Of a DNA stretch of 64,000 nucleotides, positions 27,625 through 50,244 are shown piece after piece. The position numbers were made by a program, and so were the translations under genes. Below the pieces are notes generated by a model. The model saw only the letters and a program-made list of their open reading frames with translations, ran no database searches and was not told the DNA's origin. Source of the DNA: Prostheceraeus crozeri (Eukaryota > Platyhelminthes > Polycladida > Euryleptidae); NCBI GenBank assembly GCA_907163375.1, contig CAJQUW010008928.1, positions 310,001 to 374,000 on the forward strand. The letters run 5' to 3'. Numbering within the stretch: the first letter of the stretch is position 1; each line of letters opens with the position of its first letter.

Positions 27625-28954
27625 TCAAGTGCATTTATGACAAGTGTAATAGGCATCTTTGTTGACTCCATTGCACGCTCCACAGTGCCATTCTGCACAT
27701 TCCATGCACTGATACCAATCATGCCCTTTGTAGCCCATATATGAAGCACCGCACTCACCACAACAGTCATCTTCATCATCAGTAGTTGGAGCTGACGCCC
27801 TTTGCCCACTAGCTCCACTGGTGCCAGCTTGCTCTCCAGTACTCAGCCGTTCGGCAGTTGCCCAATTCTTACCAGGTTCTGGCTTTGTGGAGTCTACTTT
27901 CCTTCCTCGTTTTGGTTTAGGCTGATCCTGTCCGCGGTTTTTCTTCAGCATTTCAATCAGTTCTGCATCCAGTTCTCTGCCAATAGATTCTTGCGTTTGC
28001 ACTCCAGATGGGACTTTTTTCAACACAATGACAGGATCAAAAGGGACAAAGCCACAGGTCTTGAATCCTGCTTTCAGATTCTTTGAGAAACTGTCTTCAC
28101 ATTTGATAAACAAACGTTTAAGCAAACCTGGAATGTATTCCTTGGGGATCGCACCACGTCTTTGACTTTCTAATCGCCACTGATCCAGAATGCTGCGCCA
28201 GGCCTGTTTCATACTTTTCAATACAGCCACATCCAGTGGCTGGATAAGATGAGTTGAGTTAGGAACTAATGAGGCAAAATAAATTTCATTCTCATGACAC
28301 AATGATATTACCTCTTCAGAAAAATGAGATGCCAAATTGTCCCCAAACTCAATCTTCTTTCCTGAAAGATCCTTGCATCTTTCTAGAAGAATTTCCCTGA
28401 ACCATTTGATGAAGGTCTCAGAATCAAACCAACCTTTACTTGTGCAGCCATATGTAGGCCTACATCCCGGAGGTCCACCAGTCACCCAACTCTCATACAA
28501 ATGCTGAGATTTATACACAATCATTGGAGGGAGCATCTCACCGTCGGCTGAACCACACATCATTATGGAAATGCTGACCTTGGAATGCTACCTACATAAT
28601 TCCACCCTTTTTGTGCCTCTTCGTACAAGAACTTTCTTACAGCCAGGATCGTCCGTTATGTTCGTTTCATCGTAGTTGAATACATTAGACGGTTCAATGT
28701 TGCTTAAGACATCTTAAAGTTATTGTAAAATTTATTCAGTCAGTCGCACCAACTGAAGAACGTGCCTGTTTGATGTTCCCTGCTAGCCTTTGGGTCATGT
28801 TATTGCGTTTCACAAATCCTCTGATGAAGTCCACACCAGGGTAGTTATTATGAAATCTTGTTTCAGTCCTTCCTTTTCTATCCAAAACTCTCTTCAGCAT
28901 GAGACGGACATCTAAAGGCGATAAAGGAAACCCCCAGTCTGCCACAGCTTGCAT
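27625..28954 (-). pseudogene. pogo-type transposase, C-terminal part
   Basis: Reading down from the Polinton boundary: an amino segment AVADWGFPLSP, LDVRLMLKRVLDRKGR (CENP-B-type DNA-binding remainder), a decayed stretch with stop codons (28560-28736) holding NYDETN with the first catalytic aspartate, then 27625-28563 with GDNLASHFSEEV (second aspartate), NSTHLIQPLDVAVL, and a C-terminal PHD-like zinc finger (CCGECGASY, WYQCMECAEWHC, CHKC). It is the second half of a DDE transposase related to Tigger/jerky proteins. Stops and frame changes show it was decaying. The upstream half lies on the far side of the Polinton. Confidence 0.85.
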
Positions 28955-28955
28955 G

Positions 28956-29335
28956 AGTAGTGAAAACTGTGCCCTACTTGCCACGGATAGGTACATGGAT
29001 AGGTACATGTAAAGTTTAGTGTTATCAATAGGTACATGGATAGGTACCTGTAAAGTTTAGTGTTGTCAATAGGAACATGGATAGGTACATGTATACTTTA
29101 GTTATCGATAGGCACATGGATAGGTACATGTATAATTCAGTGTTATCAATAGGAACTTGTATGAGATCTGTTTTACTGGATAGGTACATGTGTTTGGTAC
29201 ACTCAGTTGAGTACACTGTGTTTGGGAACGTCTGTGATCGAACTTGTGTGGTTTGGTTCTGAGCACTTGGGTACGTACCGATAGACGTCCGTTGTTTGAT
29301 TTTGAATGGGTTTGCTCAATTGCGACTATTGTGAC
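28956..29335 (+). repeat. Polinton left terminal inverted repeat
   Basis: 380 bp. Its outer half is built from about four 40-55-bp subrepeats based on GGATAGGTACATG and TTTAGTGTTATCAATAGG. The inner half is unique sequence ending in GCGACTATTGTGAC. Compared with the right copy it lacks one GGTACATGGATA unit and has an extra 14 bp (around CTCAGTTGAGTACA). Confidence 0.95.
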
Positions 29336-29396
29336 TATTGCAACCATTGTAATCAAGATGACACATTGATTTTCCTTTTACGTAGACAAACTATGC

Positions 29397-29418: not shown

Positions 29419-29928
29419 ATGGCATACATAATGATGACTAGTATCCCAACGTCGTGGGTTGTCGCAAGAGACCTTGGATATTCGTTCAAAGCCATAGAAA
29501 CTGTAACAAATCTCAGTGAAAATATCAACGCTGGTGATTTAGTTGATCGACTAATGGATCTAGATGAGCATGCTATGAATCACAATTTGGATCGTAGGTG
29601 GATAGAGGATTTCTCCATGCTACACTGCAATGATAGTGAAATTAGGAGGATCAAATTGGAACGATATGGAAAGAAGGAGACATCTGACAGTGTTTTAATA
29701 AAAAGTTCTCCCAATAAAAGTGACTTCAGAAGGAAATTAGAACAAGAGACATTTAAATTATTATGTGAACGGAACTGCGTTAAATGTTTTAAACAGGAAC
29801 GATCCCTTCTCTTTTTGCCATGTTGTCATAGCGTTATGTGTTCTACATGTTATGTACCCTTTGAAACTTCATCTTGTCCCCTTTGCGATGAAGAAATATC
29901 TTCAACAGTCACTGTATATCGTACATGA
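29419..29928 (+). CDS. UBA plus C-terminal RING protein (IAP-type E3 ligase without BIR)
   Basis: 169 residues from the first ATG; 29431 is an equally possible start. Residues about 10-50 (VARDLGYSFKAIETVT, NAGDLVDRLMDLDEH) look like the UBA domain of cellular IAPs, which binds ubiquitin. Residues about 116-160 form a RING finger: NCVKC, LLFLPCCHS, MCSTC, CPLCDEEI, ending TVTVYRT like IAP RINGs. There is no BIR domain, so caspase binding is not predicted. It may ubiquitinate host death or defence factors. It is the first gene inside the left TIR. Gene capture from a host BIRC-like gene is plausible. Confidence 0.8.
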   Translation: MAYIMMTSIPTSWVVARDLGYSFKAIETVTNLSENINAGDLVDRLMDLDEHAMNHNLDRRWIEDFSMLHCNDSEIRRIKLERYGKKETSDSVLIKSSPNKSDFRRKLEQETFKLLCERNCVKCFKQERSLLFLPCCHSVMCSTCYVPFETSSCPLCDEEISSTVTVYRT

Positions 29929-29983: not shown

Positions 29984-29992
29984 TATATAAGG
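29984..29992 (+). promoter_or_regulatory. TATA box, TATATAAGG
   Basis: TATATAAGG lies 47 bases before the ATG of the next gene, with an inverted CCAAT box (ATTGG) about 30 bases upstream. The following GGACATTGTACC closely matches GATGACATTGTTCC after the TATA box at 48932, so the two outer genes share a promoter type. Confidence 0.7.
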
Positions 29993-31241: not shown

Positions 31242-31250
31242 TATATAAGG
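31242..31250 (+). promoter_or_regulatory. TATA box, TATATAAGG
   Basis: TATATAAGG followed by AAGACGCTTT, about 90 bases before the ATG at 31335. ATGAGTCAT and CGTCATCA motifs (AP-1/ATF-like) sit within 45 bases upstream. Confidence 0.6.
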
Positions 31251-32210: not shown

Positions 32211-32846
32211 ATGACAGATTTTCGTCTATTCACTGATCGCACAATGTGTGTCGCTGGACCAAGTCAGTCCGGTAAAACTACATTTGTAACTGAATTGCTA
32301 CAATATAGAAATGAAATGTTTAACAAGGAAATTAAGAGAGTCAAATGGTATTATGGAATATTTCAACCACAACTACATTCTGCACTTCGCCAGAAAGGTT
32401 ATGAGGTGAAGCAAGGGTTGCCATCAACTGAGGATATCAAAGCAGGTGACTTACTAGTATTAGATGATCTATTACGAGAAAGCAAATCTTCAAAGGATGT
32501 AACTGAAATGTTCATTCAAACTGCACATCATAGGGAAGCTTTTATTATCTACATCACCCAAAACATCTTCGATGGAGGGAAAGAGCAAAGAACTAGAAGT
32601 TTGAATACACATTATTTGGCAATATTTAAAAATCCAAGAGATAGCAGTCAGATACATCATCTCAGTAGACAGATATTACCTCAACAACCTAAAGTACTTT
32701 CAAAAATATATGAAGATGTAACAAAGAAACCACATGGTTATCTATTTATTGATCTAACCCAGGAATGTCCGGAACGACTTCGATTTCGAACAAATATCAT
32801 ACCTAATTCCGCTGAACCAATGACAGTTTTCTCGGTTCACAGTTAG
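32211..32846 (+). CDS. Genome-packaging ATPase (FtsK/HerA, A32-like)
   Basis: 211 residues, a usual length for Polinton ATPases. Walker A is GPSQSGKTT (residues 16-24) and Walker B is LLVLDD (81-86). A downstream ITQNIF (about 122) holds the sensor-like region. It would drive DNA into a preformed capsid. It opens a plus-strand block of closely spaced genes (gaps of 10-50 bases) with the structural proteins and protease. No TATA box lies upstream, suggesting a late or polycistronic transcript. Confidence 0.95.
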   Translation: MTDFRLFTDRTMCVAGPSQSGKTTFVTELLQYRNEMFNKEIKRVKWYYGIFQPQLHSALRQKGYEVKQGLPSTEDIKAGDLLVLDDLLRESKSSKDVTEMFIQTAHHREAFIIYITQNIFDGGKEQRTRSLNTHYLAIFKNPRDSSQIHHLSRQILPQQPKVLSKIYEDVTKKPHGYLFIDLTQECPERLRFRTNIIPNSAEPMTVFSVHS

Positions 32847-33565: not shown

Positions 33566-33892
33566 ATGTCGTTACAAAAATTTTGCTGCTGTTTGAAATC
33601 TGCGCTCGAAGGTAAAGCAGAAGAGGGCATAGAGGTTGATATCAATTGTGTTAGCAGTTGCTGTGCGAGTAATACGCGTGCAAATCAGAACAAAGACGAT
33701 GAGTACAGCAGTGAAACTCAGAAAGATTTATTACGACTTAAATCATCCCGCAAGTTTCAGTCGTCCGGAGGTTCTAGCCCGTGCAGCAGGTGTGGGAATA
33801 GAGAAAGTCAAGAAGTGGTTGAGGAGTCAACCGACTTACACTCTTCACAAAAATGCGAGAAAGCGGTTTCCAACAAGAAAATATGTTGTTAA
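33566..33892 (+). CDS. Cysteine-rich ORF overlapping the integrase start
   Basis: 108 residues from an ATG 29 bases after the previous stop. Cysteines cluster at both ends and the middle (KFCCCLKS, INCVSSCC, PCSRCGN, KKICC). The final 194 bases overlap the integrase gene in a different frame. The integrase frame is +1 relative to this one. Spacing matches its neighbours, but the overlap and odd composition leave doubt. It could be a small metal-binding protein, or an upstream frame that shifts into the integrase. Confidence 0.45.
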   Translation: MSLQKFCCCLKSALEGKAEEGIEVDINCVSSCCASNTRANQNKDDEYSSETQKDLLRLKSSRKFQSSGGSSPCSRCGNRESQEVVEESTDLHSSQKCEKAVSNKKICC

Positions 33893-34787
33893 CAATATAG
33901 ATAGTCAATGGCAAGCGGACTTGGCTGACATGCAACAGATATCACAGTACAATGATGGCTATAAATACATCTTAACCGTAATAGATATTTTATCTCGCTA
34001 TGCTTGGGCACGTGCGCTGAAATCTAAACGAGGACCAGAAGTTGAAGCGGCTTTTCAGAGCATTTTCGATGAGGGGCGTGTTCCGCAAAGAATACAGACC
34101 GATCAAGGGAAGGAATTCGAAAACTCTCATGTTCGAAGTCTCCTTAAAAGTCATAATGTGGAATTGTTTAGTGTCAAAAGTGCTTATAAAGCTGCCATGG
34201 TTGAGAGGTTCAATCGCACACTGAAGACAAAAATATGGCGCTATTTCACTGCAAAAAATACACATGTTTGGGTAGGTGAGCTGCAGAAATTTGTTAAGAA
34301 TTACAATGAAAGCTACCATCGAATCATTAAGATGAAACCAGTTGATGTTACCCCAGATAATGCGATGGATGTATGGCTTCGATTGTATGATAAGAAAGCG
34401 AAAAACATTTCCAATGAAAAGAAAATTAATGTTGGTGATAGAGTTCGGATTTCAAAGGTTAAGTCTACATTTGAGAAGGGGTATCTACCTAATTGGACTG
34501 AAGAAGAGTTTTTTGTGGATGAAGTAAATACAAAATTTAGACCCACCATGTATAAATTAATAGATTACCATGGCAATCCAATTGAAGGAAAATTTTACTC
34601 TTATGAATTGCAAGTAGTAGACAGAAGTGAAGAGGTGTATATGATTGATAAAATAATTAGGAGGAAAGGTCATGGCAATCAAAGGAAATATCTAGTTAAA
34701 TGGAAAGGATATCCTGATTCATTCAATAGCTGGATAACGCACCAGGATCTACAAAATGTGGAGATGGGAGACACTCGTAACTTTTAA
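33699..34787 (+). CDS. Polinton retroviral-type integrase with chromodomain
   Basis: 362 residues from the first ATG; the frame opens upstream at a TTG, but that region is shared with another ORF. The N-terminal helix-turn-helix-like part is followed by an rve core with D74 (WQADLADM), D135 (IQTDQGKEF) and E169 (MVERFNRT), a D-D-34-E spacing. The C-terminal residues about 309-350 form a chromodomain (YMIDKIIRRKGH, RKYLVKWKGYPDSFNSW). The enzyme joins the TIR ends to target DNA and makes the 6-bp duplication. The chromodomain could bias insertion to modified histones. Confidence 0.96.
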   Translation: MSTAVKLRKIYYDLNHPASFSRPEVLARAAGVGIEKVKKWLRSQPTYTLHKNARKRFPTRKYVVNNIDSQWQADLADMQQISQYNDGYKYILTVIDILSRYAWARALKSKRGPEVEAAFQSIFDEGRVPQRIQTDQGKEFENSHVRSLLKSHNVELFSVKSAYKAAMVERFNRTLKTKIWRYFTAKNTHVWVGELQKFVKNYNESYHRIIKMKPVDVTPDNAMDVWLRLYDKKAKNISNEKKINVGDRVRISKVKSTFEKGYLPNWTEEEFFVDEVNTKFRPTMYKLIDYHGNPIEGKFYSYELQVVDRSEEVYMIDKIIRRKGHGNQRKYLVKWKGYPDSFNSWITHQDLQNVEMGDTRNF

Positions 34788-34827
34788 GCTAATATAGCAT
34801 GTGACTTCTTCCATATATGACTTTAAC

Positions 34828-36405
34828 ATGTCTACTAACTTCAATATCATTCTTCCAAGCAATAGCAACCCCAAGATATTCCCAAGTAACAAACCATCTC
34901 TATACTCTGTTGAATTCGCTAATCCAATTACTCTGCATGGACCCCATGAAGTTGCTCTAACTGAAATTACTTATTACAACGATATCAGTTTGCTAAAGAA
35001 CAACTATTTTGAATTACATAAAGAAGTGCGAGAGAAGGATGATTGCTTTCGCATATTTCAAAATAGTCTACATGGTACATGGGCTTTTCATCATCTAACT
35101 TTACATCCTTTTTCAACATCTTTACCATCTGTTCAAAACATGATTAAAATTCAAAAGGCATTTGCAACGTCAACTTTTGATTCTAAGGTTCCCACAATGA
35201 GCTTGCAAGATACAGAAAAGGAAATCGGTAGAATGTTTGAACGAATAAATGATCTCTTCAAGCTGACTTTGAATAAATTCTACAAACCAGTCATAAAGGG
35301 GTCAACAAAATTGATGAAGGAAGGGAAGCATGTTCTTCTTGTATTAGGTAAGGATTTGAGTCATACTTTTGGGTATTCCAGAACAACTTTCTCATCAAGG
35401 TATTGGTACAATGGACGTGGGTGGAATTCGGAGAGGAAAGTCACTGATTTTAAATGTAGAATTGTGCCATTGTATGCATTACAAAAAAGGAGCATCCGAG
35501 TAAAAAATAAATTTGAGGTCATTAGAAGTGTTGAAGACTTTGCAAGAAAGTTTCAAGGATCAGTGCCAGAAACGTTAATGACTTGTGAATATAAGAAAGA
35601 GAAAGTAACTTTATTTACTGTTGAAACGGAGGCAGAATTTATTGTTTTTACTAAAAAGACACCATTGGAAAAGTCTGAGTCCGCTGTTATTGAATTTGGA
35701 TCTGAAATGATTGGGATGTTTAAGGGCCTTGAAAGCGCACCTTGGTTGACAGAATTAAATGATACATTCAAGGTTCAATTGTCCTCTTCTAAACTCAAAG
35801 CATCAACAAATGCTTCATGGGATATCCACGTATACAGCGAAGACATATCGGGTGATGAATTGTCTACTTCCAGTGAACTTGTAAAAAGAGTTAATTTGAA
35901 CATTGAAAGCTTGAAAACGCCATCTGAATTGTGTACAAAGTTAAATGAGTTTGGTGTAGATTACCTTGATGCAGATGAATATCACTTTTCTTATGATCCA
36001 CATAAGAAACGCATGATTCTAAAGGTAGGGAAGAACTCTCTTATCAAGCTGGATAGCGTGTTAACGACCACATTGGGATTCTCAAAATCAACTATTTATG
36101 AAGGTACATCAATAGGCGATACAGCCCCATCACTAGAGCGTGATATAAGTAACTTATACGTCTATTGTAACATTATTGAATATACAAGGGTTGGCGACAT
36201 TGAGGCCCCACTTCTGCGCACATTTCCTCTCTCATCCGTAAGGAAGCAACTAATCAATCGAGAATTTTTTAACACAATGTATCTACCAATCAGCCGAAAT
36301 TTCATCAATAGAATTGACATATCAATTCATGATGATGCAGGAGAAGTAGTACCGTTCTGTGGTGGTGTTACTGTTTTGACCCTACATATTAGGTCACGAG
36401 AATAA
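34828..36405 (+). CDS. Penton-like minor capsid protein
   Basis: 525 residues from the ATG at 34828; the open frame extends 27 bases upstream only to a GTG. The opening NFNIILPSNSNPKIFPSN and HEVALTEITYYNDI match the conserved start of the large Polinton protein that carries the jelly-roll minor capsid (penton) fold. Long for a bare single jelly roll, so additional domains are likely. It would occupy the fivefold vertices. It is followed by the pVI-like and major capsid genes. Confidence 0.75.
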   Translation: MSTNFNIILPSNSNPKIFPSNKPSLYSVEFANPITLHGPHEVALTEITYYNDISLLKNNYFELHKEVREKDDCFRIFQNSLHGTWAFHHLTLHPFSTSLPSVQNMIKIQKAFATSTFDSKVPTMSLQDTEKEIGRMFERINDLFKLTLNKFYKPVIKGSTKLMKEGKHVLLVLGKDLSHTFGYSRTTFSSRYWYNGRGWNSERKVTDFKCRIVPLYALQKRSIRVKNKFEVIRSVEDFARKFQGSVPETLMTCEYKKEKVTLFTVETEAEFIVFTKKTPLEKSESAVIEFGSEMIGMFKGLESAPWLTELNDTFKVQLSSSKLKASTNASWDIHVYSEDISGDELSTSSELVKRVNLNIESLKTPSELCTKLNEFGVDYLDADEYHFSYDPHKKRMILKVGKNSLIKLDSVLTTTLGFSKSTIYEGTSIGDTAPSLERDISNLYVYCNIIEYTRVGDIEAPLLRTFPLSSVRKQLINREFFNTMYLPISRNFINRIDISIHDDAGEVVPFCGGVTVLTLHIRSRE

Positions 36406-36448: not shown

Positions 36449-36931
36449 ATGACAGGCATTTACAGTAGACCATCATATCAGAGCGGTTATCCCGTGTTTG
36501 TTGGAGGTAGACGACAAGTTGGAGGAGGCATATTTGGTGCACTAAGACGTATGGTTCTTCCAACACTCAAAAAGTATGGCGTACCAATCATGAAGCGTGT
36601 TGGAAGCAGGGCTTTAGATTTTGGTGCAAATGTTGCAGCTGATGCGCTTCAAGGTGAGGATATCGGTGAATCTATGAAAATGCGCGCGCAGCAATCTGCC
36701 ATAGACGCATTAGATGATTTAACAAAGACGAGACGTACAGTTCGGAAGAAGCGTAGGAAGTCAAGACAAGTTGGATCAGGCCGAGTTACTAAGCAAAGAC
36801 GCAGGAAAAGTAAAAAGCCGACTAGAGCAGCACGTTCTAAATCTAGACGTCGAGTGAAAACAAGAAAGCGCAAACGAAATTCCACAGCTACTAGAAACAA
36901 GTCAAAACGAAGGAAGACAACATATTTGTAG
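36449..36931 (+). CDS. Basic pVI/pX-like virion protein
   Basis: 160 residues. Residues about 25-45 (GGGIFGALRRMVLPTLKK) form a Gly-led amphipathic helix like the membrane-active segment of adenoviral pVI. From residue about 93 the chain is almost entirely Arg/Lys/Ser/Thr (VRKKRRKSRQ and onward), suited to DNA condensation. A Gly-Gly sequence near residue 26 could be a protease site. It lies directly upstream of the major capsid gene. Confidence 0.8.
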   Translation: MTGIYSRPSYQSGYPVFVGGRRQVGGGIFGALRRMVLPTLKKYGVPIMKRVGSRALDFGANVAADALQGEDIGESMKMRAQQSAIDALDDLTKTRRTVRKKRRKSRQVGSGRVTKQRRRKSKKPTRAARSKSRRRVKTRKRKRNSTATRNKSKRRKTTYL

Positions 36932-36941
36932 AGCTAATACG

Positions 36942-38225
36942 ATGCAGAGTATCAATTCGGCTTTGTGTTTCTTCGATTCTCCCCCTCATCAGACAGACAT
37001 CATCTCCTCAACAATTGTAGACATAGTCCCCACAACAAATATCGATGGTAACCAGCAGCCTATTCAGTTTGATATACCTGCCAATCCTCAAGATTATATT
37101 GACTGTCAATCCATTGATTTAGAGTTGTGTATACAAATTAAGAAGACTGATGGTACAAATATCGATTCATCCAAGGATAAAGTGGGGTTAGCAAATCTTC
37201 CTATTGCCAGTCTGTTCTCAGATGTGTATCTAATATTGAATGACAAACAGATTGAAGGAGGGGATCGAGGATATCCATATGGAGCATATATACATACAAT
37301 GACTCAATTTCAAAAGCAAGCTAAACAGTCACACTTGCAAGTTTCTGGGTGGTATGATGATCAGCAAGGGAAATTTGATGATGTCTCAAATACAGGGTTG
37401 AAAAGACGAATGGATTTAACAGCGGATTCAAAGGAATTATACTTGAAAGGACCCGTCTATCTTGATTTCCTTCGTCAATCTAGATATCTGCTATCACAGG
37501 TTAAAATGCAAATAAAATTTATTCGCGCAAATCCTGAGTTCGCGTTAATGGCTTTTGGAGCTACAAACTATCAAGTCAACATAAGTAATGCCGTGCTCAA
37601 TGTAAGGCGAGTAACAATGAACCCGTCAGTCATCAACGAGCATGCGACAGGATTGAGGAAAAACAATGCAATATATCCAGTTAATCACAGTGTGTTGACA
37701 AACTTCACAATTGGTGCGGGATCATCCTCACATGCCTACCCAAATCTTTTTCCCACTGCAATGCCAAAGGCGGTGTATATCACATTTGTGGAAAATGAGG
37801 CATTCATTGGTGCTTTTGAAAAGAATCCATTCAATTTCCAACACTTTAATGTTAGCAAACTAGCACTCTATCAGGATGGGAAATTTGTATCTTGCAAAGC
37901 ATATGAGCCTAATTTCAAAGATGGTAAATTCGCACGTGAATATGGTTCTATTTTCACCGCCCTCAACATGTTTAATACAGACGATTCAAATGGAATTACA
38001 ATGGATATGTACAAGAATGGCTACTTCTTCATTATGTACAACCTCACAGCAGATGCAGATCTAGGTGGTGAAAGCGTAGGAGTTACAAAGCCTGGAAATC
38101 TACGACTGGAGGTATCATTTGAGTCACCTTTGAAGAAAACAATTACTTGTCTCATTTATGCTATCTATGATAGCAAAGTTGAGATAACAAGAATGAGAGA
38201 CGTGACTGTCAGCTATCAGAGATGA
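36942..38225 (+). CDS. Major capsid protein, double jelly-roll
   Basis: 427 residues, normal for Polinton major capsid proteins. Diagnostic stretches include DIPANPQDYIDCQSIDLEL, LFSDVYLILNDKQI, YPYGAYIHTM and VNHSVLTNFTIGAG. The region around residues 45-120 is the classic N-terminal jelly roll of this family. Trimers would build the icosahedral shell. Its TGA overlaps the ATG of the protease gene by 4 bases (ATGA, 38222-38225), so the two are probably translated from one message. Confidence 0.95.
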   Translation: MQSINSALCFFDSPPHQTDIISSTIVDIVPTTNIDGNQQPIQFDIPANPQDYIDCQSIDLELCIQIKKTDGTNIDSSKDKVGLANLPIASLFSDVYLILNDKQIEGGDRGYPYGAYIHTMTQFQKQAKQSHLQVSGWYDDQQGKFDDVSNTGLKRRMDLTADSKELYLKGPVYLDFLRQSRYLLSQVKMQIKFIRANPEFALMAFGATNYQVNISNAVLNVRRVTMNPSVINEHATGLRKNNAIYPVNHSVLTNFTIGAGSSSHAYPNLFPTAMPKAVYITFVENEAFIGAFEKNPFNFQHFNVSKLALYQDGKFVSCKAYEPNFKDGKFAREYGSIFTALNMFNTDDSNGITMDMYKNGYFFIMYNLTADADLGGESVGVTKPGNLRLEVSFESPLKKTITCLIYAIYDSKVEITRMRDVTVSYQR

Positions 38226-38686
38226 GTAACTTAAGCAACATAGAAATCTTGAGGAAAATGAGGAAAGCTCATCCCTACTCCAAGACAATATTTCTCAATG
38301 TCTTTTCTAGAGATAATTTACCTGATTCAATTCCTTTCTATCCTTGTTCGCTTATCATCAATACGGATACCAACAATCTTCCCGGAAAACATTGGATTGC
38401 TGTATACATCAATCGTTATAAAGTTGCCGAATATTTTGACTCTCTTAATCAACCTCGTTTACATGATATCGCATTATGGATGAACAGGTTTTCCTGGACT
38501 GTTAGGAAAGTGACATCGTTCCCACTTCAAAGTAATACATCTCTAATGTGCGGTGGCTATGTACTCTATTTTGTCAACGAGAGACCATTGAAAAATAACT
38601 GTAAAAGTGCTTTAGAACTATTTTCAAAAAACTGTGATAAAAATGATGTAATTCTTACTAAATATGTTGAAACAGTTTTGAAATAA
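38222..38686 (+). CDS. Adenain-like cysteine protease (maturation protease)
   Basis: 154 residues. The catalytic triad is visible in family order: H57 in GKHWIAVYI, D73 in EYFDSLN, C110 in SLMCGGYV, with the oxyanion glutamine Q103 in PLQSN. Proteases of this type trim pVI-like and core proteins after assembly. It ends the plus-strand late block. The stop codon overlaps a polyadenylation signal AATAAA (38682-38687). Confidence 0.95.
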   Translation: MSNLSNIEILRKMRKAHPYSKTIFLNVFSRDNLPDSIPFYPCSLIINTDTNNLPGKHWIAVYINRYKVAEYFDSLNQPRLHDIALWMNRFSWTVRKVTSFPLQSNTSLMCGGYVLYFVNERPLKNNCKSALELFSKNCDKNDVILTKYVETVLK

Positions 38687-38834: not shown

Positions 38835-39404
38835 CTACAATTTGGTTTTCATGAAACATTTTTTCAAATCACATATGATGGGAGGCACATCACTTATGTC
38901 TTTAATGCCGGTTATCACAATCTTTCCATTATGGAACACATGAACATGATATGGATGCCAGTTAGTCAATTGAGCTGCTGGAAATAACTCCACTTCATAA
39001 GTTAGATTATGTGATGATGTAACTTTACGGAAATCATAGTGATAATGTAATTCACATAACACGGTCATTGTCTTCACTTTCCAATCAGATAATGAATCAC
39101 CAAGTAAATGTTCCAAAGTTAAGTGTAAATATGAGAGATCACCCTCCATGACCCTTCCAATACATTGGATTGTTCCATTTGGAAAGAATAGGATAGTGAG
39201 AGATCTATCCTTCCTCTGAATCCTCCATGTTAACATTGAGGGTCTTCCAAGATGTAAGCTCGTTGTCGGCTTCAATTTGCGTTTTATCAGTAACCATTGT
39301 TTTCGGTTGGGTATATTCCTCTCGATCTCTTGTAGATTGAGTTTTGACTTTGCTTTTGTAGTTAACATCCGATTTACAACTTCCAACCGTTTGATGTCCT
39401 CCAT
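38835..39404 (-). CDS. TATA-binding-protein-like protein
   Basis: 189 residues from an ATG at 39402-39404. From residue about 56 it follows the TBP saddle: MLTWRIQRKDRSLTILFF, NGTIQCIG (TBP repeat 1: strands ending SSGKMVCTG), a helix LSYLHLTLEHLLGD, WKVKTMTVLCELHYHY (TBP: IQNMVGSCDV), YEVELFPAAQLT (TBP: YEPELFPGLIY) and HNGKIVITGIKD (TBP: VSGKVVLTGAK). The first strand and stirrup of repeat 1 are not evident, so the fold may be incomplete. It would bind promoter DNA in the nucleus or in the virus factory. The start overlaps the upstream PC4-like ORF by 200 bases in another frame. Confidence 0.75.
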   Translation of the reverse strand: MEDIKRLEVVNRMLTTKAKSKLNLQEIERNIPNRKQWLLIKRKLKPTTSLHLGRPSMLTWRIQRKDRSLTILFFPNGTIQCIGRVMEGDLSYLHLTLEHLLGDSLSDWKVKTMTVLCELHYHYDFRKVTSSHNLTYEVELFPAAQLTNWHPYHVHVFHNGKIVITGIKDISDVPPIICDLKKCFMKTKL

Positions 39405-39765
39405 CTTTAATGAATGACGTTATCTGTGGTAGTATCTCCCTTGTAAAGGTTTCCCATGTGACGTCACTGAAACGAAAAAATCGATATTCAACATCTTCAC
39501 GTTTTGGTGAACAGACGTATAGTTTGACTGATGAATCACACTTTATCCATACCTTGTCATCGAGAGGAATCTTGATCCGAGTCTTATGGTTGTCAATGAG
39601 ATCCGCAAAGTCTTTCAGTGAAGGCAATGAGTCAATACTAATGCAAACGCCACGATGTTTTCGATCACTATTTGCTATTGAATGACGAAATGCTATTCTG
39701 TTAGAATTTGTTATGTGAACGTTTTGAACGTCACTAAGTTTCCATGTTCTAATGTAATGAGGCAT
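39205..39765 (-). CDS. Protein with two PC4-like repeats (coactivator/ssDNA binding)
   Basis: 187 residues from the first ATG (39763-39765). Residues about 5-60 (TWKLSDVQNVHIT, RIAFRHSI, RGVCISIDSLPSLKDFADLI) and about 63-122 (KIPLDDKVWIKC, VKLYVCSPK, RFSDVTWETFTREILPQI) both match the pattern of PC4/Sub1: four strands, a G/F-x-IS/FS turn, then a helix. PC4 binds single-stranded DNA and connects activators to TFIID/TBP. The tail is charged and shares DNA with the TBP-like ORF. The assignment is by pattern only. It is downstream of polymerase B on the same strand. Confidence 0.5.
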   Translation of the reverse strand: MPHYIRTWKLSDVQNVHITNSNRIAFRHSIANSDRKHRGVCISIDSLPSLKDFADLIDNHKTRIKIPLDDKVWIKCDSSVKLYVCSPKREDVEYRFFRFSDVTWETFTREILPQITSFIKDGGHQTVGSCKSDVNYKSKVKTQSTRDREEYTQPKTMVTDKTQIEADNELTSWKTLNVNMEDSEEG

Positions 39766-39827
39766 GTTCCGAAAGCTATGTCTCAAATTTAAGTTTAATG
39801 TTTGCCTAAAGTTTGCTATTTTATTAG

Positions 39828-39997
39828 CTCAACATATCGGAATGATGTTGAGTACAAATTCTTCACATATTCATTCACATTAGGACTACCTATTTATTAG
39901 TAATCATTTCTACATATCGGAAAGATGTAGAAATTTCAATTTTAGTAAGACTACTTATGTATTAGTAAGTGTTGCTACATGTCGGAAGATGCAGCAA
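39828..39997 (-). repeat. Three tandem hairpins with a conserved loop
   Basis: Hairpin 1 (39828-39852): stem CTCAACAT/ATGTTGAG, loop ATCGGAATG. Hairpin 2 (39906-39934): 10-bp stem ATTTCTACAT/ATGTAGAAAT, loop ATCGGAAAG. Hairpin 3 (39972-39997): stem TTGCTACAT/ATGCAGCAA with one mismatch, loop GTCGGAAG. Stems differ but stay paired, and the loop core TCGGAA is constant. Between them TATTAGTAA recurs. They lie between the polymerase stop and the PC4-like start. Confidence 0.9.
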
Positions 39998-40044: not shown

Positions 40045-43000
40045 TTATTCTACATCACCTGTGACAGGAAGGCATCTCCTTCTCTTCGACGGTGGGGGAA
40101 GACCTAGGCTATAGTGTCCATATGGTAATGATAAATTTTTATCCAGCCAACAGCGCTTATCCTCCCAAAGTGAAAGACCTCGCTTCCTAAATGATTTTGT
40201 GCTAACTATGTGATTTTTTGAATTTATAATTGTCATATCTTCAGTTGTATCATTCTCACTATAATAGACACTCCTATAGTCATCATGTTTCAATTTTTTA
40301 ACTGCTGCTCTCTGAATTCCTTTTGCACGTTTGATGCTATGATTGGTAGAGTCTAGATATTTCATGGAATACATTTTCGGTTTTAGTAGGATCATTTCCT
40401 CAAGCAACTTTCCAGCACACTCATCCTTAAAACAACCTAATCTAGCTTTGTTTGTAGTTGAGTATAGTCGGTGATGACTGTCATAGTTTGAAGAGTCAAA
40501 CTTTTCACCGAAGTATAGAAGTATATCTTCCAGACGGACAGATGGTGATGTGTATAAACATAGGAAGAAACTATCGGTATCACCTCCACAAAGTCGCGTT
40601 CTATTTATCAGTGGACATCCTTTTAGATCATTGTAATATAATTGATACATTTCCAACTTACTATAGTCAAGTACTGCTTGACCAACATATATTAATTTAT
40701 TTAAAACTATTGAAGGTTTGTACATTTCCATACCAACCAGATCTTCATCAAATATTTTGTGTTGAACATAGAGAGGATGATTTGACAATTTCAGTAGTTG
40801 TTTCTCATTGTTGACTAGTTTAAATTTTTTCCTTCTCCTTACATTTTCCATTGTTTTACCATATAAAGAATTATTTTTCAATTTGTAGAATGACTTTTCG
40901 AAGTCAGTGTTTGATTGAGCCCTCTTTTGAGAGTTCATATCAATGTATGTTTTTAACCAAGGCTTTTGTGTGAATTTTATGCCACTATGAATCTTCTTGA
41001 TTCTCATGCCCATGCTCAAGTAAAATTTTAAAATTGAATAGTGGACTACATAATTTTCCCTATCAAATTGATGGAGCAGAAGTTTCTTGATAGAAGAAAA
41101 ATGTGTATTTGGTCTTACTTTTTCATATAGATTTTTCATATAGTGTGAAAACATTCTCTTTTCAATCATCTGCATTTCTGGAGCTAATGGGAAATCGGCA
41201 GTGTCATCATGAATGGCTGCAGGATACTCTAAATCTAAATCAAAAATGTAGCCGATTTCACCATCATCATCTATATTTTGAACATTTTCTTCATTTAAAA
41301 AATTATCTAATTCACTTTCATTCAACCATTTGAAATTTGAGTGGGGTAGATTCCTACTGAGTGAAGAACCGTAAAGGTTATTAACATCTAAGTAGGTCAA
41401 ATGTCGACTTTCATGTATATTATTTCCTAATTCTTCAATGCGTGCACGCGCTCGGTGAATGTTGGTGAAAGTCATACCCCCTCTAATTCCTCGTTCAAAT
41501 AGATTGTACATATTTTCATCTTGTATGTAGTGTGGGGGATCATTGGAAGAGAAATTTAGTGCTGAGGTAAAGCTAAGATGTGGGAGACTGACAAAATGTA
41601 CAGGGTCGACTTCATCCTCACGTTGACTCAATGCTCTAAACACTTCAAATATGTCTGCCAACAATAAAACATCTAACTTCAGATATGCCAGCATGTAATC
41701 ACCAAATGTGCTACAATTAAATTCAATCCACGCCTTGTTAGCGTGTTCATATTCACTATCGGAACAGTGCTCACGAGTAAGATCATTATAGAATTCAAAT
41801 TGTGGTGGTAGACAGTCTTCCGTCAACGTGTTTAAGTTTTTGAAGTATGAATATGGAAACACTCCCTTCTGATATAAAACATTATCACTTAATTGTGGAA
41901 ATTCTACCCTTAATGTCTCTACATGCTCATACGTTTGCAAGCCCTTGGCTAATTCACTCAAGGATGCACTTAGAAATTGATATGAGTCTAAGAATTTTAG
42001 TTTAAAGTATACTGTCTTCCCTTTGTATTCATTTACAGGGACACTGGCGGATAAAGTTATATATTTTTCAGCAGTTGCTGCTACAACATCTAATTTCCAA
42101 GACTTCATTCTTCCAATCGCTTTATAGCAAACGATGTGGCTATCATAATTTTTAAAATTGTGGAAAAATATGGGGAGCTCCCGTCTGTTAAGTCTTAACC
42201 GGAGATTGCATTTCCTACATAATGTTTGCCTATATCGTCCGGTGATATGATCATGATCACGAACTTTTATGACTTCATCGCTGAATTTTGATTTACATTT
42301 GTTGCAACATTCTGCATTCTCGTGGCGTGCTTTTTCATCCGCTGACAGTGACATTGGCTGCCTAGTTGTTGCACATTGGTTGTCATATAAGTCTTGGGCT
42401 ACAGTTTCTAAGTGGTGCAAGAAACTAATAATGCAATTTTCTCCCTCAAAGAGGTAATACTTGTTTTCAAATTTTGATTGAAGGGCATTATGCCAGACAT
42501 GATAAGCTCCAATAGCCGCAGGTTTATGTATTTTATTATCAATGTAGCACTCTATATCTGCATAAATTACTAAAGGAGGACTTAGTTGATATTCCATGCT
42601 ACTTGTTAGTACTTTTAGATCTGTCGGCATTTTTTCTATTTGTGCTTTTCCTCGAATGCAAAACTGGAAATGTCGTTCTAGTGTTGTCTTATATGTGAAT
42701 GACTGAGTGCATCTTTCGCAGAAGTATTTATGTCTTTTTAAAGTTCTCCTATACAATCTTGACAGCTTTGGAATTCCACAATAGTGTGCTGCTCCATTGT
42801 TTAGAATTAGCAAAATATTAACCGTTTGCCTACCAGTAAAGTTACTATTGTAACGAACACCTTTGAGTCCATTTTCATAAAAGTGAATGTTAATTTTAAT
42901 ATCATTATTTTTCTCAAATTTTGGAATATCTTTGATTGATACTGGTGTGGAAATGCCTTCCATATTTAGCTCAGATGTCCACTCACTATATGATTTTACT

Positions 43001-43902
43001 TCATTCCTTGAATAAGGTACTTCATTATAATGCAATATTGATAAAACTGCATATAGGAAGCAATCATTTGCATTTGAATTAACATTAATGACAGCTTTAG
43101 AGTTTTTTAACTTCTTTGGTAGAGGAAATGATTGTCCACCTGACAGTATTGGACTTGTTATTACATTGAACTCTATATTTTGTACATCATCTATAATCCA
43201 ATTGCTACCCTTTTTTGTGAAGGCTTCAATATGATTTATTAGACTATTTAGATGATCCTGAAACCAAGCATCATAGTCATAAATATAGTTTGAGGATGAT
43301 GAGGTAAAGTGTGCGAGAAAAGTTTCTTCTTCTTGAGGATTAGAACGGACATAACGAATTTGTGCAATCAGACGACCGCGCAATTGATAGCTCCTTAGTA
43401 AGTCAGACACTAAATTCCCTAACATGGAACGCATGCTTTCTAAAAATGATGTTATGTCCACAGTAGGTGTTGTTGGCGTGATATCATACACACGTGCATG
43501 GCCATTGAGTGCGCTTTCACTGAGACTAACAGTTCCATAGTTATTATGCATATTCATCTCACTATTTGTGTTATGTACATTCATATGCTGTCGAAATCTA
43601 CTTATAGAGTTATACGTTTTGCCACACCGAGAGCAGTATTGCATAAAGTTTTGTATGTTAGTTGAAGCGCTGGTTGTTGGCTTAGAAGTAGATCTATTTT
43701 GATTATTTGAATTTGACTCTGTTATGCTATCATTCGGTTTATTATTGCATACAAGTTTATGTCTCTTAAGATTATCCATCCTATTCGTCTTATATGGACA
43801 CTTGCTACATTGATACGTTTTTCCTAACTTACAAAATTTTTCATGTCGTTGCAAATTGCCTATGAGAGTGAACACTTTTCCACACTTGGTACAGACAACC
43901 AT
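40045..43902 (-). CDS. POLB: Protein-primed DNA polymerase B, Polinton type
   Basis: 1285 residues from an ATG. In order: C2H2-like fingers near 4-24, 32-52, 90-110 and 395-416; an OTU/papain-like segment about 270-385 (NANDCFLYAVLSILH, later AHYCG); exonuclease I YADIEC (447); an endonuclease VII-like HNH insert about 533-566 (DHDHITGRYRQTLCRKCN); exonuclease II FFHNFKNYDSH (579); exonuclease III YLKLDVLLLAD (740); polymerase A YLDVNNLYG (837), B KNNSLYGK (1009) and C GGDTDSF (1106). It replicates the linear element using a terminal protein primer. No break is seen. A TATA box and CRE lie just upstream. Confidence 0.97.
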   Translation of the reverse strand: MVVCTKCGKVFTLIGNLQRHEKFCKLGKTYQCSKCPYKTNRMDNLKRHKLVCNNKPNDSITESNSNNQNRSTSKPTTSASTNIQNFMQYCSRCGKTYNSISRFRQHMNVHNTNSEMNMHNNYGTVSLSESALNGHARVYDITPTTPTVDITSFLESMRSMLGNLVSDLLRSYQLRGRLIAQIRYVRSNPQEEETFLAHFTSSSSNYIYDYDAWFQDHLNSLINHIEAFTKKGSNWIIDDVQNIEFNVITSPILSGGQSFPLPKKLKNSKAVINVNSNANDCFLYAVLSILHYNEVPYSRNEVKSYSEWTSELNMEGISTPVSIKDIPKFEKNNDIKINIHFYENGLKGVRYNSNFTGRQTVNILLILNNGAAHYCGIPKLSRLYRRTLKRHKYFCERCTQSFTYKTTLERHFQFCIRGKAQIEKMPTDLKVLTSSMEYQLSPPLVIYADIECYIDNKIHKPAAIGAYHVWHNALQSKFENKYYLFEGENCIISFLHHLETVAQDLYDNQCATTRQPMSLSADEKARHENAECCNKCKSKFSDEVIKVRDHDHITGRYRQTLCRKCNLRLRLNRRELPIFFHNFKNYDSHIVCYKAIGRMKSWKLDVVAATAEKYITLSASVPVNEYKGKTVYFKLKFLDSYQFLSASLSELAKGLQTYEHVETLRVEFPQLSDNVLYQKGVFPYSYFKNLNTLTEDCLPPQFEFYNDLTREHCSDSEYEHANKAWIEFNCSTFGDYMLAYLKLDVLLLADIFEVFRALSQREDEVDPVHFVSLPHLSFTSALNFSSNDPPHYIQDENMYNLFERGIRGGMTFTNIHRARARIEELGNNIHESRHLTYLDVNNLYGSSLSRNLPHSNFKWLNESELDNFLNEENVQNIDDDGEIGYIFDLDLEYPAAIHDDTADFPLAPEMQMIEKRMFSHYMKNLYEKVRPNTHFSSIKKLLLHQFDRENYVVHYSILKFYLSMGMRIKKIHSGIKFTQKPWLKTYIDMNSQKRAQSNTDFEKSFYKLKNNSLYGKTMENVRRRKKFKLVNNEKQLLKLSNHPLYVQHKIFDEDLVGMEMYKPSIVLNKLIYVGQAVLDYSKLEMYQLYYNDLKGCPLINRTRLCGGDTDSFFLCLYTSPSVRLEDILLYFGEKFDSSNYDSHHRLYSTTNKARLGCFKDECAGKLLEEMILLKPKMYSMKYLDSTNHSIKRAKGIQRAAVKKLKHDDYRSVYYSENDTTEDMTIINSKNHIVSTKSFRKRGLSLWEDKRCWLDKNLSLPYGHYSLGLPPPSKRRRCLPVTGDVE

Positions 43903-43932: not shown

Positions 43933-43963
43933 CCTTATATACATCTACCAGCTAATGACGTCA
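43933..43963 (-). promoter_or_regulatory. POLB promoter: TATATAAGG and CRE
   Basis: On the minus strand TATATAAGG (43933-43941) lies 31 bases before the POLB ATG. TGACGTCA (43956-43963), a perfect cyclic-AMP/ATF response element, lies 14 bases further up, with a second TGACG half-site beside it. Host ATF/CREB-type factors could start early expression. Confidence 0.7.
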
Positions 43964-44075: not shown

Positions 44076-46101
44076 TTACAGTCTGACACATTTAACAATA
44101 CCACTATGGTAGAGTTTTAGGTGACTGCAGCTGTCACTACAGCCACCCAAATCGTCCATCCTCGTAAGGCGCACTCTTCCGATGCCATTTTGGGAGCATT
44201 CCAGGTGCACAAGCGTTTCTTTGTTATGCTGTTGGCTGGTGGTAACTTGGGAGGCCAACAGGAGGTTTGATTGAGTAATATTTCTTAGAGACTCAATCAA
44301 ACCTCTATTGTCCTCCTCCAACTTAGCCTCGCGGGCCTCAGCCTCCTTTAGGCGCTCTTGGCAACGACGGAGTTGCACCTCAACGTCTTGTACCTCTGCT
44401 GTCGCGTCGAGATCCACATCATACTGCCGGACAGGGAGAGCAGCTGGAGGTGCGGGCGCAGCAGCGTGAGGGGAAGGATCTGCGGCTGGGATCGGACAGG
44501 AAGGAGCTGCGGCTGGGATCGGAGAGGAAGGAGCTGCGGCTGGGATCGAAGAGGAAGGAGCCAGTGTCATCATCGGCGATAATGGAAGGCGCACACTCCA
44601 GCTCGGAGAAGCCCGGATGTGGCTGAACGAGACTTCCTCCTGAGATGCACACATCGCGGAGTCCTGTAATCGAAAGAAACAATTGTTTATCATCTATTTA
44701 GCATTTTACCATTGATGAGATACAAAAGTGAATTTCTCTTACCTCCGGCTGGATTGTGACCTTCTGATCGGTTCCAACCTCCGTCTCACGGGGCAACGAG
44801 TCATTCTAAAAGATAAATCAATCTATTACAAACAAAAAACATATTTTAATAGAAAATTCTGTACTCATGCAGTTGACCAACTTTGATACTTACATTTGTA
44901 ACAGGATCATCATCCTCATCGGAAGAAGATGTCGGGGAAGAAGTCGCTGACGACGTTTCCTCATCAGATGAAGTCGCTGATGAGGTTTCATCGTCCTCTG
45001 ATGAGGACTCCCGAATAGGATACGGCTTTTCCTCATTCTCTTCCACCGATGTACTGGTCGCTGGCGTCGAAAGGAAACTTCGATGCTTCCTGAGGGACAG
45101 CGATCGCGCAACCTGCAGAGAAAAATAATATAACATGTTCGCAACTCATTGAGAAGCATACATGTTCTTGGAAATACTTCATGCATTGAGAAATATTATT
45201 GACAAATAACTAAACAATGACACTTACGGGACTAGGAAGACACATCTTCTCCGGTGTAGGCAAACGGGGTATACTGTTCACACCTGTAAACAGCTGAAGA
45301 AAAGAACATATTCAATTTCGCATAAAGAGCTAATGAATAACTTTAATACTTACATTTCTCAAGCATTCAGCCGCTTTCTCCTCTTCAAAACTGATACAAT
45401 TCTGTTGAGGCAACTCACTCTGAAATGTTGTGACAATGTTGAAATACTTTTTACATGATAGAATAATTAATGGAGTAAATGTATTCTCACATTTTTAGTG
45501 ACGATCTTTTTCTGAATTAAGACCTTGGTCTTCTTAGGAGGAGGCATCTCATCATTATCCTGAAATGATTAAACGATATATGTTTTTATGTATAATGGAC
45601 CAATAATTAATTTATTCGGATTTAAGAAGCTATCCTTTGAAGGTTTTATGTATGATTGGCAGAACTCACCTCAAAATCGCTTAAGGTGTCATCGATGAAC
45701 TGTCGTGACTTGGGGGCTTTCTTTGGGGCTCGGGACTTGATAGGTTTCTTTATTGCTGTAGGCTCATCAACCTGTGAAAGGACACCTTCCATCGGCCTCT
45801 CCTTTTGAAATAACCGCTCCAACCTCCTCTTTTCAGCCTTTGAGGTGAGGTTGATTCCCTTCCTCCCATTTTGTTGAGCACATGGTGTATGTTTCTCAAT
45901 GAATGCCTTAGAGGCTTCGGTATTAACCTTTTCAGTACTCCGTTTATATGACTTGCAGGTTAGGCAGTACAGATACGTGCATTCACTTTTGAAGATACAG
46001 TTCTTGTGGCCGCTCTTATTAGCATGTCGAACGGGTATTTTGCACGTCTCACAGAAATGAAAAATTAGGCGCTGTCGTGCAAGACTCTCTTGTCGGACCA
46101 T
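44076..46101 (-). CDS. Spliced gene, seven coding exons, Cys-rich head and coiled-coil tail
   Basis: Predicted coding exons (minus): 46101-45670, 45559-45491, 45419-45354, 45293-45228, 45112-44894, 44805-44743, 44663-44076. Each is a multiple of three (432, 69, 66, 66, 219, 63, 588), giving 500 residues. All introns (60-115 bp) are phase 0 with GTGAGT/GTAAGT-like donors and pyrimidine tracts before CAG or TAG. The N-terminal part has zinc-ribbon-like cysteines (FCETCKIPVRH, GHKNC, CLTCKSYK), then a basic linker, an acidic serine-rich middle, a Pro/Ala repeat (SSPIPAAAP) and a coiled coil (LKEAEAREAKLEEDNRGLIE). I do not recognise the family. Confidence 0.75.
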
Positions 46102-47274: not shown

Positions 47275-47428
47275 GGTTAGGGTTAAGGGTTAGGGTTAGG
47301 GTTAGGGTTAAGGTTAGGGTTAGGGTTAGGGTTAGGGTTAAGGTTAGGGTTAGGGTTAGGGTTAAGGTTAGGGTTAGGGTTAGGGTTAGGGTTAGGGTTA
47401 GGGTTAGGGTTAAGGTTAGGGTTAGGGA
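47275..47428 (+). repeat. Telomere-like TTAGGG array
   Basis: About 150 bp of TTAGGG with regularly mixed TTAAGG units. It lies inside the Polinton, about 2 kb from its right TIR. TTAGGG is the metazoan telomere repeat. An antisense open frame of Asn-Pro repeats is only its translation. Confidence 0.95.
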
Positions 47429-47465
47429 AGCAAGAAGAGTATCTATGGCACCCGGAACCCATGGG

Positions 47466-48772: not shown

Positions 48773-48931
48773 TATGACTTGTAGATTTAAAATAATTGTA
48801 ACTTGTAAACGTGAGGATTAGAACCTTTGATAAGAATTGGTACAAACCTCGGACTTATATACTTTTTAAACAAAGGAAATCCTAACAGCCAATCAGAGAG
48901 GTACCGAACTTCCCTAAAGAATATATATAAC

Positions 48932-49287: not shown

Positions 49288-49423
49288 ATTAAACTTACAT
49301 TGTAAATCTCTTGTCTTTTCATTTTAAACATAGTTCTGGAATTGGTTTTCTTATTGGGGAGCAACTAAATCATAACTGCACAGTAAAGTTTCACATCTAA
49401 ATAGTGCTACATTAAAAATAATT

Positions 49424-49801
49424 GTCACAATAGTCGCAATTGAGCAAACCCATTCAAAATCAAACAACGGACGTCTATCGGTACGTACCCAAGTGCTCAG
49501 AACCAAACCACACAAGTTCGATCATAGACGTTCCGAAACACAGTGTACCAAACACATGTACCTATCCAGTAAAACAGATCTCATACAAGTTCCTATTGAT
49601 AACACTGAATTATACATGTACCTATCCGTGTGCCTATCGATAACTAAACTATCCATGTACCTATCCATGTACCTATCCATGTTCCTATTGACAACACTAA
49701 ACTTTACAGGTACCTATCCATGTACCTATTGATAACACTAAACTTTACATGTACCTATCCATGTACCTATCCGTGGCAAGTAGGGCACAGTTTTCACTAC
49801 T
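49424..49801 (-). repeat. Polinton right terminal inverted repeat
   Basis: 378 bp, inverse of 28956-29335. It starts internally at GTCACAATAGTCGC and ends CACTACT before the target duplication. There are few substitutions relative to the left end, which points to recent insertion or terminal copy-correction during replication. Confidence 0.95.
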
Positions 49802-49807
49802 TGCATG

Positions 49808-50040
49808 GTTTCCGCAATTTCATGCTCTTCCGCGGGAGAGAAAACTGGCTGCCCACCAGACTTTAAAGGGTGCTTGGCATTGACTTTGTCACTCAGTGTC
49901 TTCCTTGGTACATTGAAAGTGGCTGACGCAGACCTGCTTGACTGTCCACCATTTCGTACAGCCGCCACAGCTCCTTCCATAGCCTGTGGAGTATGCTGAC
50001 GGTACGTATGACCAGGTGCAGATTCATATGTTCTTGGCAT
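49808..50040 (-). pseudogene. pogo-type transposase, N-terminal part
   Basis: From the ATG at 50038-50040: MPRTYESAPG, then a psq-type helix-turn-helix (AVAAVRNGGQSSRSASATF, NVPRKTLSDKV) and the beginning of the linker (SPAEEHEIAETMQ), where the Polinton entered. The next codons are found on the other side at 28954 (AVADWGFPLSP). The TGCATG duplication encodes the shared Met-Gln boundary. This half has no stop codons. Confidence 0.9.
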
Positions 50041-50244
50041 GCTATTTGACATAAAGCAAGCAGAAAATGACAAGCAGAGCATTTGCTGTGCCTAATGAAC
50101 AAAGGACGACCGGTGCGATTTGCTCAGTACAGCCAGCCAATCACACGGCGCCATTCACAACGGCTAGTCGGAGAAACAAGACATTCGTTATCTAATGCAT
50201 GGCGAACTTAGCCTCGGAGGGCGAACTCACCCCATCTTACGGTA

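Follow-up and report, generated by a model that had tools for sequence, protein, structure and literature searches.

The locus studied here raises two questions: does a Polinton carry its own TATA-binding protein (TBP), as an original prediction from the sequence had proposed, and which promoters would such a protein serve? We addressed both in the window, a stretch of 64,000 nucleotides of contig CAJQUW010008928.1 from Prostheceraeus crozeri, and then in the rest of the assembly and in metagenomes.

The TBP homologue and the element that carries it

Pfam TBP (PF00352) matched the 189-aa open reading frame in two stretches with E = 5.6e-13 and 49 bits (cut-off 22.9), and the same family was matched by 17/17 members of profile A1, which holds 17 sequences of the Polinton TBP family. 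Comparison of the single 189-aa sequence with the PDB by phmmer gave 36 matches at E up to 10, of which 34 were named TBP/TFIID or TBP fusions. The best match (E = 7.5e-5) was labelled only ECU04_1440 protein, with an alignment resembling those of the TBP matches, and one match was unrelated to TBP (E = 0.5). With profile A1, 35 PDB matches were obtained at E <= 0.001, namely 34 named TBP/TFIID or TBP fusions and the ECU04_1440 protein. Positions 5-172 of profile A3 (43 sequences) aligned to residues 10-179 of human TBP (1jfi_C) with E = 5.9e-36, which covers the complete core. The peptides IQCIG, YEVELFPAAQL and HNGKIVITG, from which the prediction had been made, were present in the reading frame and aligned to TBP as claimed, and the profile matches lay above background. 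As judged from these profiles, the reading frame at 38835-39404 encodes a TBP homologue with two repeats.

Metagenomic relatives of the window TBP numbered 16 in one search and 119 proteins in an iterated search, and each of the 119 listed carried the TBP Pfam label. Many close relatives were listed at 119-137 aa; since their N-termini lie close to the overlap with ORF2, the partner gene described below, this short size is probably an artefact of gene calling. PHROGs gave no TBP match for the window protein, and two TBP and two major capsid protein (MCP) queries found no relative among IMG/VR viral contigs.

The surrounding element is a Polinton, as had been supposed. Its terminal inverted repeats aligned at 92% with gaps and the 6-bp duplication TGCATG flanked both ends (Table 1), which together delimit an element of 20,846 bp. 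These repeats, the duplication, the rve-chromodomain integrase and, on their probable labels, PolB and the protease and capsid block are shared with Polintons/Mavericks and adintoviruses. The genes on the plus strand were, in order, RING, three small genes, ATPase, g32856, g33566, integrase, penton-like, basic core-like, capsid and protease, followed on the minus strand by TBP, ORF2 and PolB and then by small ORFs; TBP sits between the protease/capsid block and PolB.

The integrase label is firm. Those of PolB, capsid, penton, protease and ATPase are probable assignments drawn from motifs, weak matches, synteny and partly recall. Among four aligned PolB sequences GGDTDSFF was invariant and KxxxNSLYGK nearly invariant, and we take both to be PolB motifs; Pfam, NCBIfam and the PDB gave no polymerase match for the window PolB. 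The MCP candidate gave no match in Pfam or the PDB and was presumed to be the capsid protein after Polintons/adintoviruses. The core-like and penton/minor-capsid-like labels are likewise our assumptions.

Other features of the region were also recorded. The first gene of the element encodes a RING finger (29419-29928; Pfam C3HC4 1.4e-9), and a telomere-like TTAGGG array lies within the Polinton at 47277-47430. The element seems to interrupt a DDE_1 transposase gene, with the catalytic part on the left (27625-28563) and a further piece, presumably helix-turn-helix-like, on the right (49802-50082).

Table 1. Positions in the window of the ends, genes and promoter signals of the Polinton.
Feature	Position	Strand	Basis or context
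Target-site duplication TGCATG, left copy	28950..28955	.	by eye
Left terminal inverted repeat	28956..29339	.	repeat comparison
TATATAAG	29984..29991	+	55 nt before ATG at 30039
Candidate box TAAGCAAA	30744..30751	+	47 nt before ATG at 30791, outer gene also with TATA box
TATATAAG	31242..31249	+	93 nt before ATG at 31335
Candidate box TAAGCAAA	32163..32170	+	48 nt before ATPase ATG
Packaging-ATPase-like P-loop protein	32211..32846	+	AAA_14 6.7e-5, below cut-off; Pox_A32 0.054
Candidate box TAAGCAAA	33534..33541	+	32 nt before ATG at 33566
rve integrase (INT), C-terminal chromodomain	33699..34787	+	Pfam rve 3.1e-13, Chromo 1.2e-9, above cut-off
Candidate box TAAGCTAATA	34785..34794	+	43 nt before penton-like ATG
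Penton/minor-capsid-like protein (presumed)	34828..36405	+	homologues, duplicated, in L029 and L043
Small basic protein, core-protein-like (presumed)	36449..36931	+	homologues adjoin MCP in L029 and L043
Variant box AGCTAATA	36932..36939	+	shortly before MCP ATG
Major capsid protein, MCP (presumed)	36942..38225	+	162 metagenomic relatives, 120 listed
Ulp1-like cysteine protease, PRO (probable)	38222..38686	+	Peptidase_C48 E = 0.033, below cut-off; syntenic homologues in L029 and L043
Polinton TBP, 189 aa, two TBP repeats	38835..39404	-	Pfam and family-profile match
ORF2, upstream partner gene, overlaps TBP start by 200 nt in +1 relative frame	39205..39765	-	homologous overlap in L017, L029, L043
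Variant box AGCTAATA	39822..39829	-	upstream of ORF2-TBP
PolB, N-terminal zinc fingers, protein-primed type B (probable)	40045..43902	-	motifs
TATATAAG, outer-gene TATA class	43934..43941	-	39 nt before PolB ATG
TATATAAG	48854..48861	-	89 nt before ATG at 48772
Right terminal inverted repeat	49420..49801	.	repeat comparison
Target-site duplication TGCATG, right copy	49802..49807	.	by eye

Lineages, descent and the DNA-binding face

We searched the assembly of the window (2.05 Gb, 14,165 contigs) for TBP and distinguished four lineages, T1 to T4. T1, the lineage of the window, had at least 150 copies whose TBP protein was identical to that of the window (the best of 10,671 first-look candidates), and at the DNA level eight T1 loci were about 1-2% divergent from the window, suggesting a recent burst of Polinton copies. 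For T2, at least 150 of the best-ranked matches were scored, 145 of them without stops; PolB adjoined TBP in 6/6 loci examined, and the stretches read around TBP yielded no homologue of capsid, integrase or ATPase. T2 copies on contigs C1764, C6222, C2643 and C381 were paired on opposite strands at a spacing of about 4-6.5 kb, an arrangement suggestive of head-to-head elements.

A single stretch of 9.9 kb in T3 (locus L029) carried PolB, two penton-like genes, ORF2, TBP, protease, capsid, core, integrase and ATPase; L030 is a decayed copy. T4 (L043-L048, with content inspected in L043 and L044) held the T3-type block without PolB in the stretch read. TBP adjoined PRO/MCP in T3 (L029) and T4 (L043, L044), and the capsids of both lineages were 43% identical to that of the window. 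The proposal of a Polinton with its own TBP-like protein is borne out by profiles and context, and extends to several diverged Polinton lineages. In a further capsid lineage on C8677 (L053, 54350-55800) the protease adjoined the capsid, with no TBP in the 1 kb after the protease, and additional apparent capsid lineages were seen on C12088, C2364 and C13101.

The T4 TBP is under purifying selection. Among 11 T4 loci chosen by their MCP, 10 held a full TBP and 9 of these 10 were open; pN/pS was 0.34 for TBP (10 full copies), 0.33 for PRO and 0.31 for MCP, a rough measure in copies that share ancestry.

Linkage of TBP and capsid in metagenomes was assessed indirectly, with exact equality of longest-contig sizes as the fingerprint. 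Among the 119 TBP hits, 43 had a longest contig of 3 kb or more, and nine of these matched the exact size of the contig of a listed MCP hit (120 listed, 162 found), where chance gave a mean of 0.26 and a maximum of 4 in 2000 trials, and eight of the nine pairs agreed in source. The match at size 3433 (P0002/P0157) is probably due to chance, with differing sources and an MCP only 46% identical, and eight pairs remain. In the three closest linked pairs the TBP/capsid identities dropped together (71/72, 65/66 and 49/56%).

ORF2 and TBP overlapped in the +1 frame in 4/4 lineages, with offsets between their starts of 361, 289, 241 and 322 nt in T1, T2, T3 and T4, respectively. The ORF2 proteins were 15-25% identical to that of the window (alignment A4), and the recognisable part was the N-terminus. 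ORF2 seemed to us to resemble the PC4-like single-strand binding protein fold. We do not claim this identity: Pfam gave no PC4 for five ORF2 proteins, and the A4 profile had no match. With ORF2a, phmmer returned two unrelated PDB chains, one of them at a nominal E = 5.5e-4 made up of three 6-bit stretches of a triplicated chain.

A tree was built from 32 rows, comprising 24 Polinton-type TBPs, the long-branch row P0116 and cellular TBPs including the host's TBP and a TLF-like gene; its root is arbitrary and long branches were flagged by the program. A 100/98 branch parted the 24 Polinton-type TBPs and P0116 from the cellular TBPs. Since P0116 sits within them, the 24 alone were not a clean group (two changes; one in 10% of bootstrap trees). 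Their Polinton setting is direct for T1-T4, comes from matching contig sizes for P0025, P0030 and P0090, and is presumed from relatedness for the rest. The TBPs of T1-T4, all from one genome, were scattered over the Polinton side of the tree, and this argues for an old possession and not a recent host capture. Canonical host TBP exons were present in the same genome (part of the gene was read).

In human numbering, Phe210, Phe284, Phe301 and Thr309 were kept in 24/24 Polinton-type rows, and in 24/24 rows Phe193 was replaced by Pro, Val216 by Gln and Thr218 by another residue. Three of the four DNA-kinking phenylalanines (193, 210, 284 and 301) were kept and the fourth, Phe193, was Pro throughout. 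Asn163 was kept in 19/19 rows reaching that position and Asn253 in 19/24, the window protein being among the five without it. We take Thr218, Thr309 and the Asn163/Asn253 pair to contact the central base pairs; if so, the change in the Polinton TBP sits at the centre of the box, where the box proposed below departs from TATA. In the stirrup, E136, L139, F140 and P141 were invariant and E138 reached at least 90% across the 43 rows of A3 (numbered after its first row, which is without the initial Met). We take the YExELFP stirrup to be the TFIIB-contact site. In PMC3142196 the first TATA step is described as kinked by Phe284/301 and the last by Phe193/210. On this alignment, the N-terminal half of the DNA face of the Polinton TBP is remodelled. 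The protein shares with cellular TBP and its paralogues (TLF/TRF2, TBP2) the two-repeat core from end to end, the stirrup and Phe210/284/301, whereas the three replacements and its position on the opposite side of the tree set it apart.

Promoter signals of outer and inner genes

The original prediction had further held that several genes of the element have strong TATA boxes and that the element may reprogram promoter choice. TATAWA was present within 100 nt upstream of 8/8 outer genes of the window element and of 0/10 genes from ATPase to ORF2 (Fisher p = 2.3e-5), under an early/late split set by position and gene type after the sequence was seen; 11% of random positions of the element had TATAWA within the same distance. 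Doubtful ORFs, such as 44076-44693 (no TATAWA in the 130 nt upstream shown), were excluded from the 18 scored. In T3, 2/9 starts (PRO, core) and in T4, 3/14 starts (PENb, ORF2b, TBP) had TATAWA within 100 nt, near the random 11%, and T1 is thus the one lineage whose inner block is clearly free of TATA. The TATA boxes are therefore real for 8 of the 18 genes examined and absent from all 10 between ATPase and ORF2. Reprogramming of promoter choice thus finds support in outline, with a refinement: these boxes sit on outer genes, where host TBP would suffice, and a different box recurring in the TATA-less inner block is the more likely target of the Polinton TBP.

An unbiased scan of 6-mers lying 7-60 nt before starts in T1, T3 and T4 gave TTAAGC as the top 6-mer in T1 (4/8 occurrences), AAGCAA in T3 (7/11) and ATGCAA in T4 (7/12). 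Random placements did as well in 0/300 cases for T3 and 0/300 for T4, and in 49/300 for T1, where the enrichment was not significant, probably because the T1 element contains simple repeats. The three forms combine to TAWGCWAA, which was clear in two lineages and weaker in T1. Counts of WWGCAA in sense and antisense orientation were 5/1 in T1, 7/2 in T3 and 9/2 in T4 (21 vs 5 in total).

The candidate box lay mostly about 30-50 nt before the start codons of several virion-block genes, with a full range of 10 to 60 nt. The distance of about 10 nt that separates it from the ATG at T1 MCP and T4 PENa is too short for a TATA position. Outer genes had it too, as at g30791, beside a TATA box, and at RING, in the related form TATGCTA. 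The virion genes without the box were core, INT and g32856 in T1, PRO in T3, and MCP, PRO, INT and g32856 in T4; these could be co-transcribed. The T3 PolB start was left out of the scoring. An earlier motif guess, GCTAATA/AGCTAATA, was absent from T3 and was superseded by the 6-mer scan, and a splice-acceptor reading of the box was ruled out, the T4 form being without AG. In T3 only 42 nt lie between the divergent starts of a penton-like gene and ORF2 (L029, 4264-4305), an interval that leaves room only for very compact promoters or for a shared one.

Possible roles of the Polinton TBP

We propose, with slightly less than even confidence, that the Polinton TBP is a virus-encoded selector of late promoters that works like herpesvirus vTBP and replaces host TBP at virion genes. 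Outer genes with ordinary TATA boxes (PolB, RING and others) would be readable by host TFIID. The Polinton TBP, with its remodelled N-terminal DNA face, would bind TAWGCWAA, which resembles a TATA box but has G-C at its centre, at virion genes that would be the late genes; once bound, it would bring in host TFIIB and RNA polymerase II by way of its unaltered YExELFP stirrup, possibly assisted by the ORF2 protein. The TBP gene and a promoter-like signal common to related elements suggest such a private switch for virion genes. T2 speaks against this, since it keeps TBP and yet the capsid gene was not found nearby in the stretches read. So do the non-significant enrichment in T1, the boxes at outer genes, the virion genes without a box, the boxes about 10 nt from the ATG, the TATAWA at some inner starts of T3 and T4, and the C8677 capsid lineage with no TBP in the 1 kb after its protease. 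A broader form of the proposal, possible but held tentatively and with more doubt than confidence, is that a clade of Polintons has a minimal virus-specific pre-initiation module, in which a TBP of altered specificity is joined by an overlapping-gene partner and the GC-centred TAWGCWAA late box co-drifts with the TBP (TAAGCWAA, AAGCAA, TATGCAAA).

The distribution of TATAWA allows another role, in which the Polinton TBP boosts transcription generally by binding ordinary TATA boxes where host TBP is limiting, with TAWGCWAA read by something else. TATAWA stands before 8/18 genes in the element of the window and, in T4, before the start of TBP itself, and the C-terminal Phe pair that kinks the first TATA step (PMC3142196) is intact. 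However, a host TBP gene is present, and a plain TATA reader would not need the change of the N-terminal DNA face that was found in 24/24 rows; we consider this role unlikely.

The box itself may be a host activator site or an initiator, the TBP having an unrelated task. T4 has ATGCAAA(T/G), whose form ATGCAAAT we take to equal the octamer site of POU proteins, and the box stands anywhere between 10 and 60 nt from the ATG. T1 and T3, in contrast, use TAAGCWA or AAGCAA and not the octamer, and the mostly fixed orientation (21 sense, 5 antisense) is unlike a typical activator site, which makes this reading improbable in our judgement, if worth keeping in mind.

Conservation of the TFIIB-contact stirrup alongside an altered part of the DNA face would also fit a decoy role, in which the protein sequesters host TFIIB/TFIIA and depresses host transcription to the element's advantage. 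There is a model for this in TLF, a TBP relative that, according to PMC3142196, binds TFIIA and TFIIB but not TATA. Retention of three of the four DNA-kinking Phe and of Thr309 in 24/24 rows argues against a decoy, as do the two promoter classes that it would leave unexplained, and we give it very little weight. That the TBP is a captured host gene carried without function is already contradicted by the results and hardly credible: broken copies exist (the TBP of L041, and L030 as an element), but its pN/pS of 0.34 is like that of capsid and protease, the 100/98 branch separates it from host TBP, and it is present in four lineages.

Polintons occupy a central place in ideas on how eukaryotic DNA viruses evolved, and we know of no account of the timing of their gene expression. 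Because a 20-kb element encodes a direct and compact homologue of TBP, and a candidate late box recurs in diverged lineages, that timing can be put to a direct test. If true, late-promoter selection by the Polinton TBP would provide a small-scale parallel to late-gene control in herpesviruses, and an example from nature of a TBP whose DNA specificity has evolved. Within the available parts of the literature searched (PMC11071308, PMC11071296, PMC10120064, PMC12220804, PMC8097293, PMC4028283, PMC7786948, PMC10675990) we found no TBP gene described for Polintons, Mavericks or adintoviruses; an earlier mention elsewhere is possible.

Virus-encoded TBP genes are also present in mirusviruses, at 59% of genomes vs 0% of Nucleocytoviricota in PMC10132985. 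Mirusviruses are large plankton-infecting viruses. In its proposed working, the Polinton TBP would be most like the vTBP of beta- and gamma-herpesviruses (KSHV ORF24, EBV BcRF1), with which these viruses pick out a deviant TATA box before late genes; KSHV ORF24 and the TATTWAA late promoters, as presented in PMC6541308, are a precedent for virus-encoded TBP activity at late genes. The two differ: the herpesvirus protein is described as a TBP mimic within a six-member complex, whereas the Polinton protein is a compact sequence homologue, and the herpesvirus box is TATTWAA where the candidate Polinton box is TAWGCWAA.
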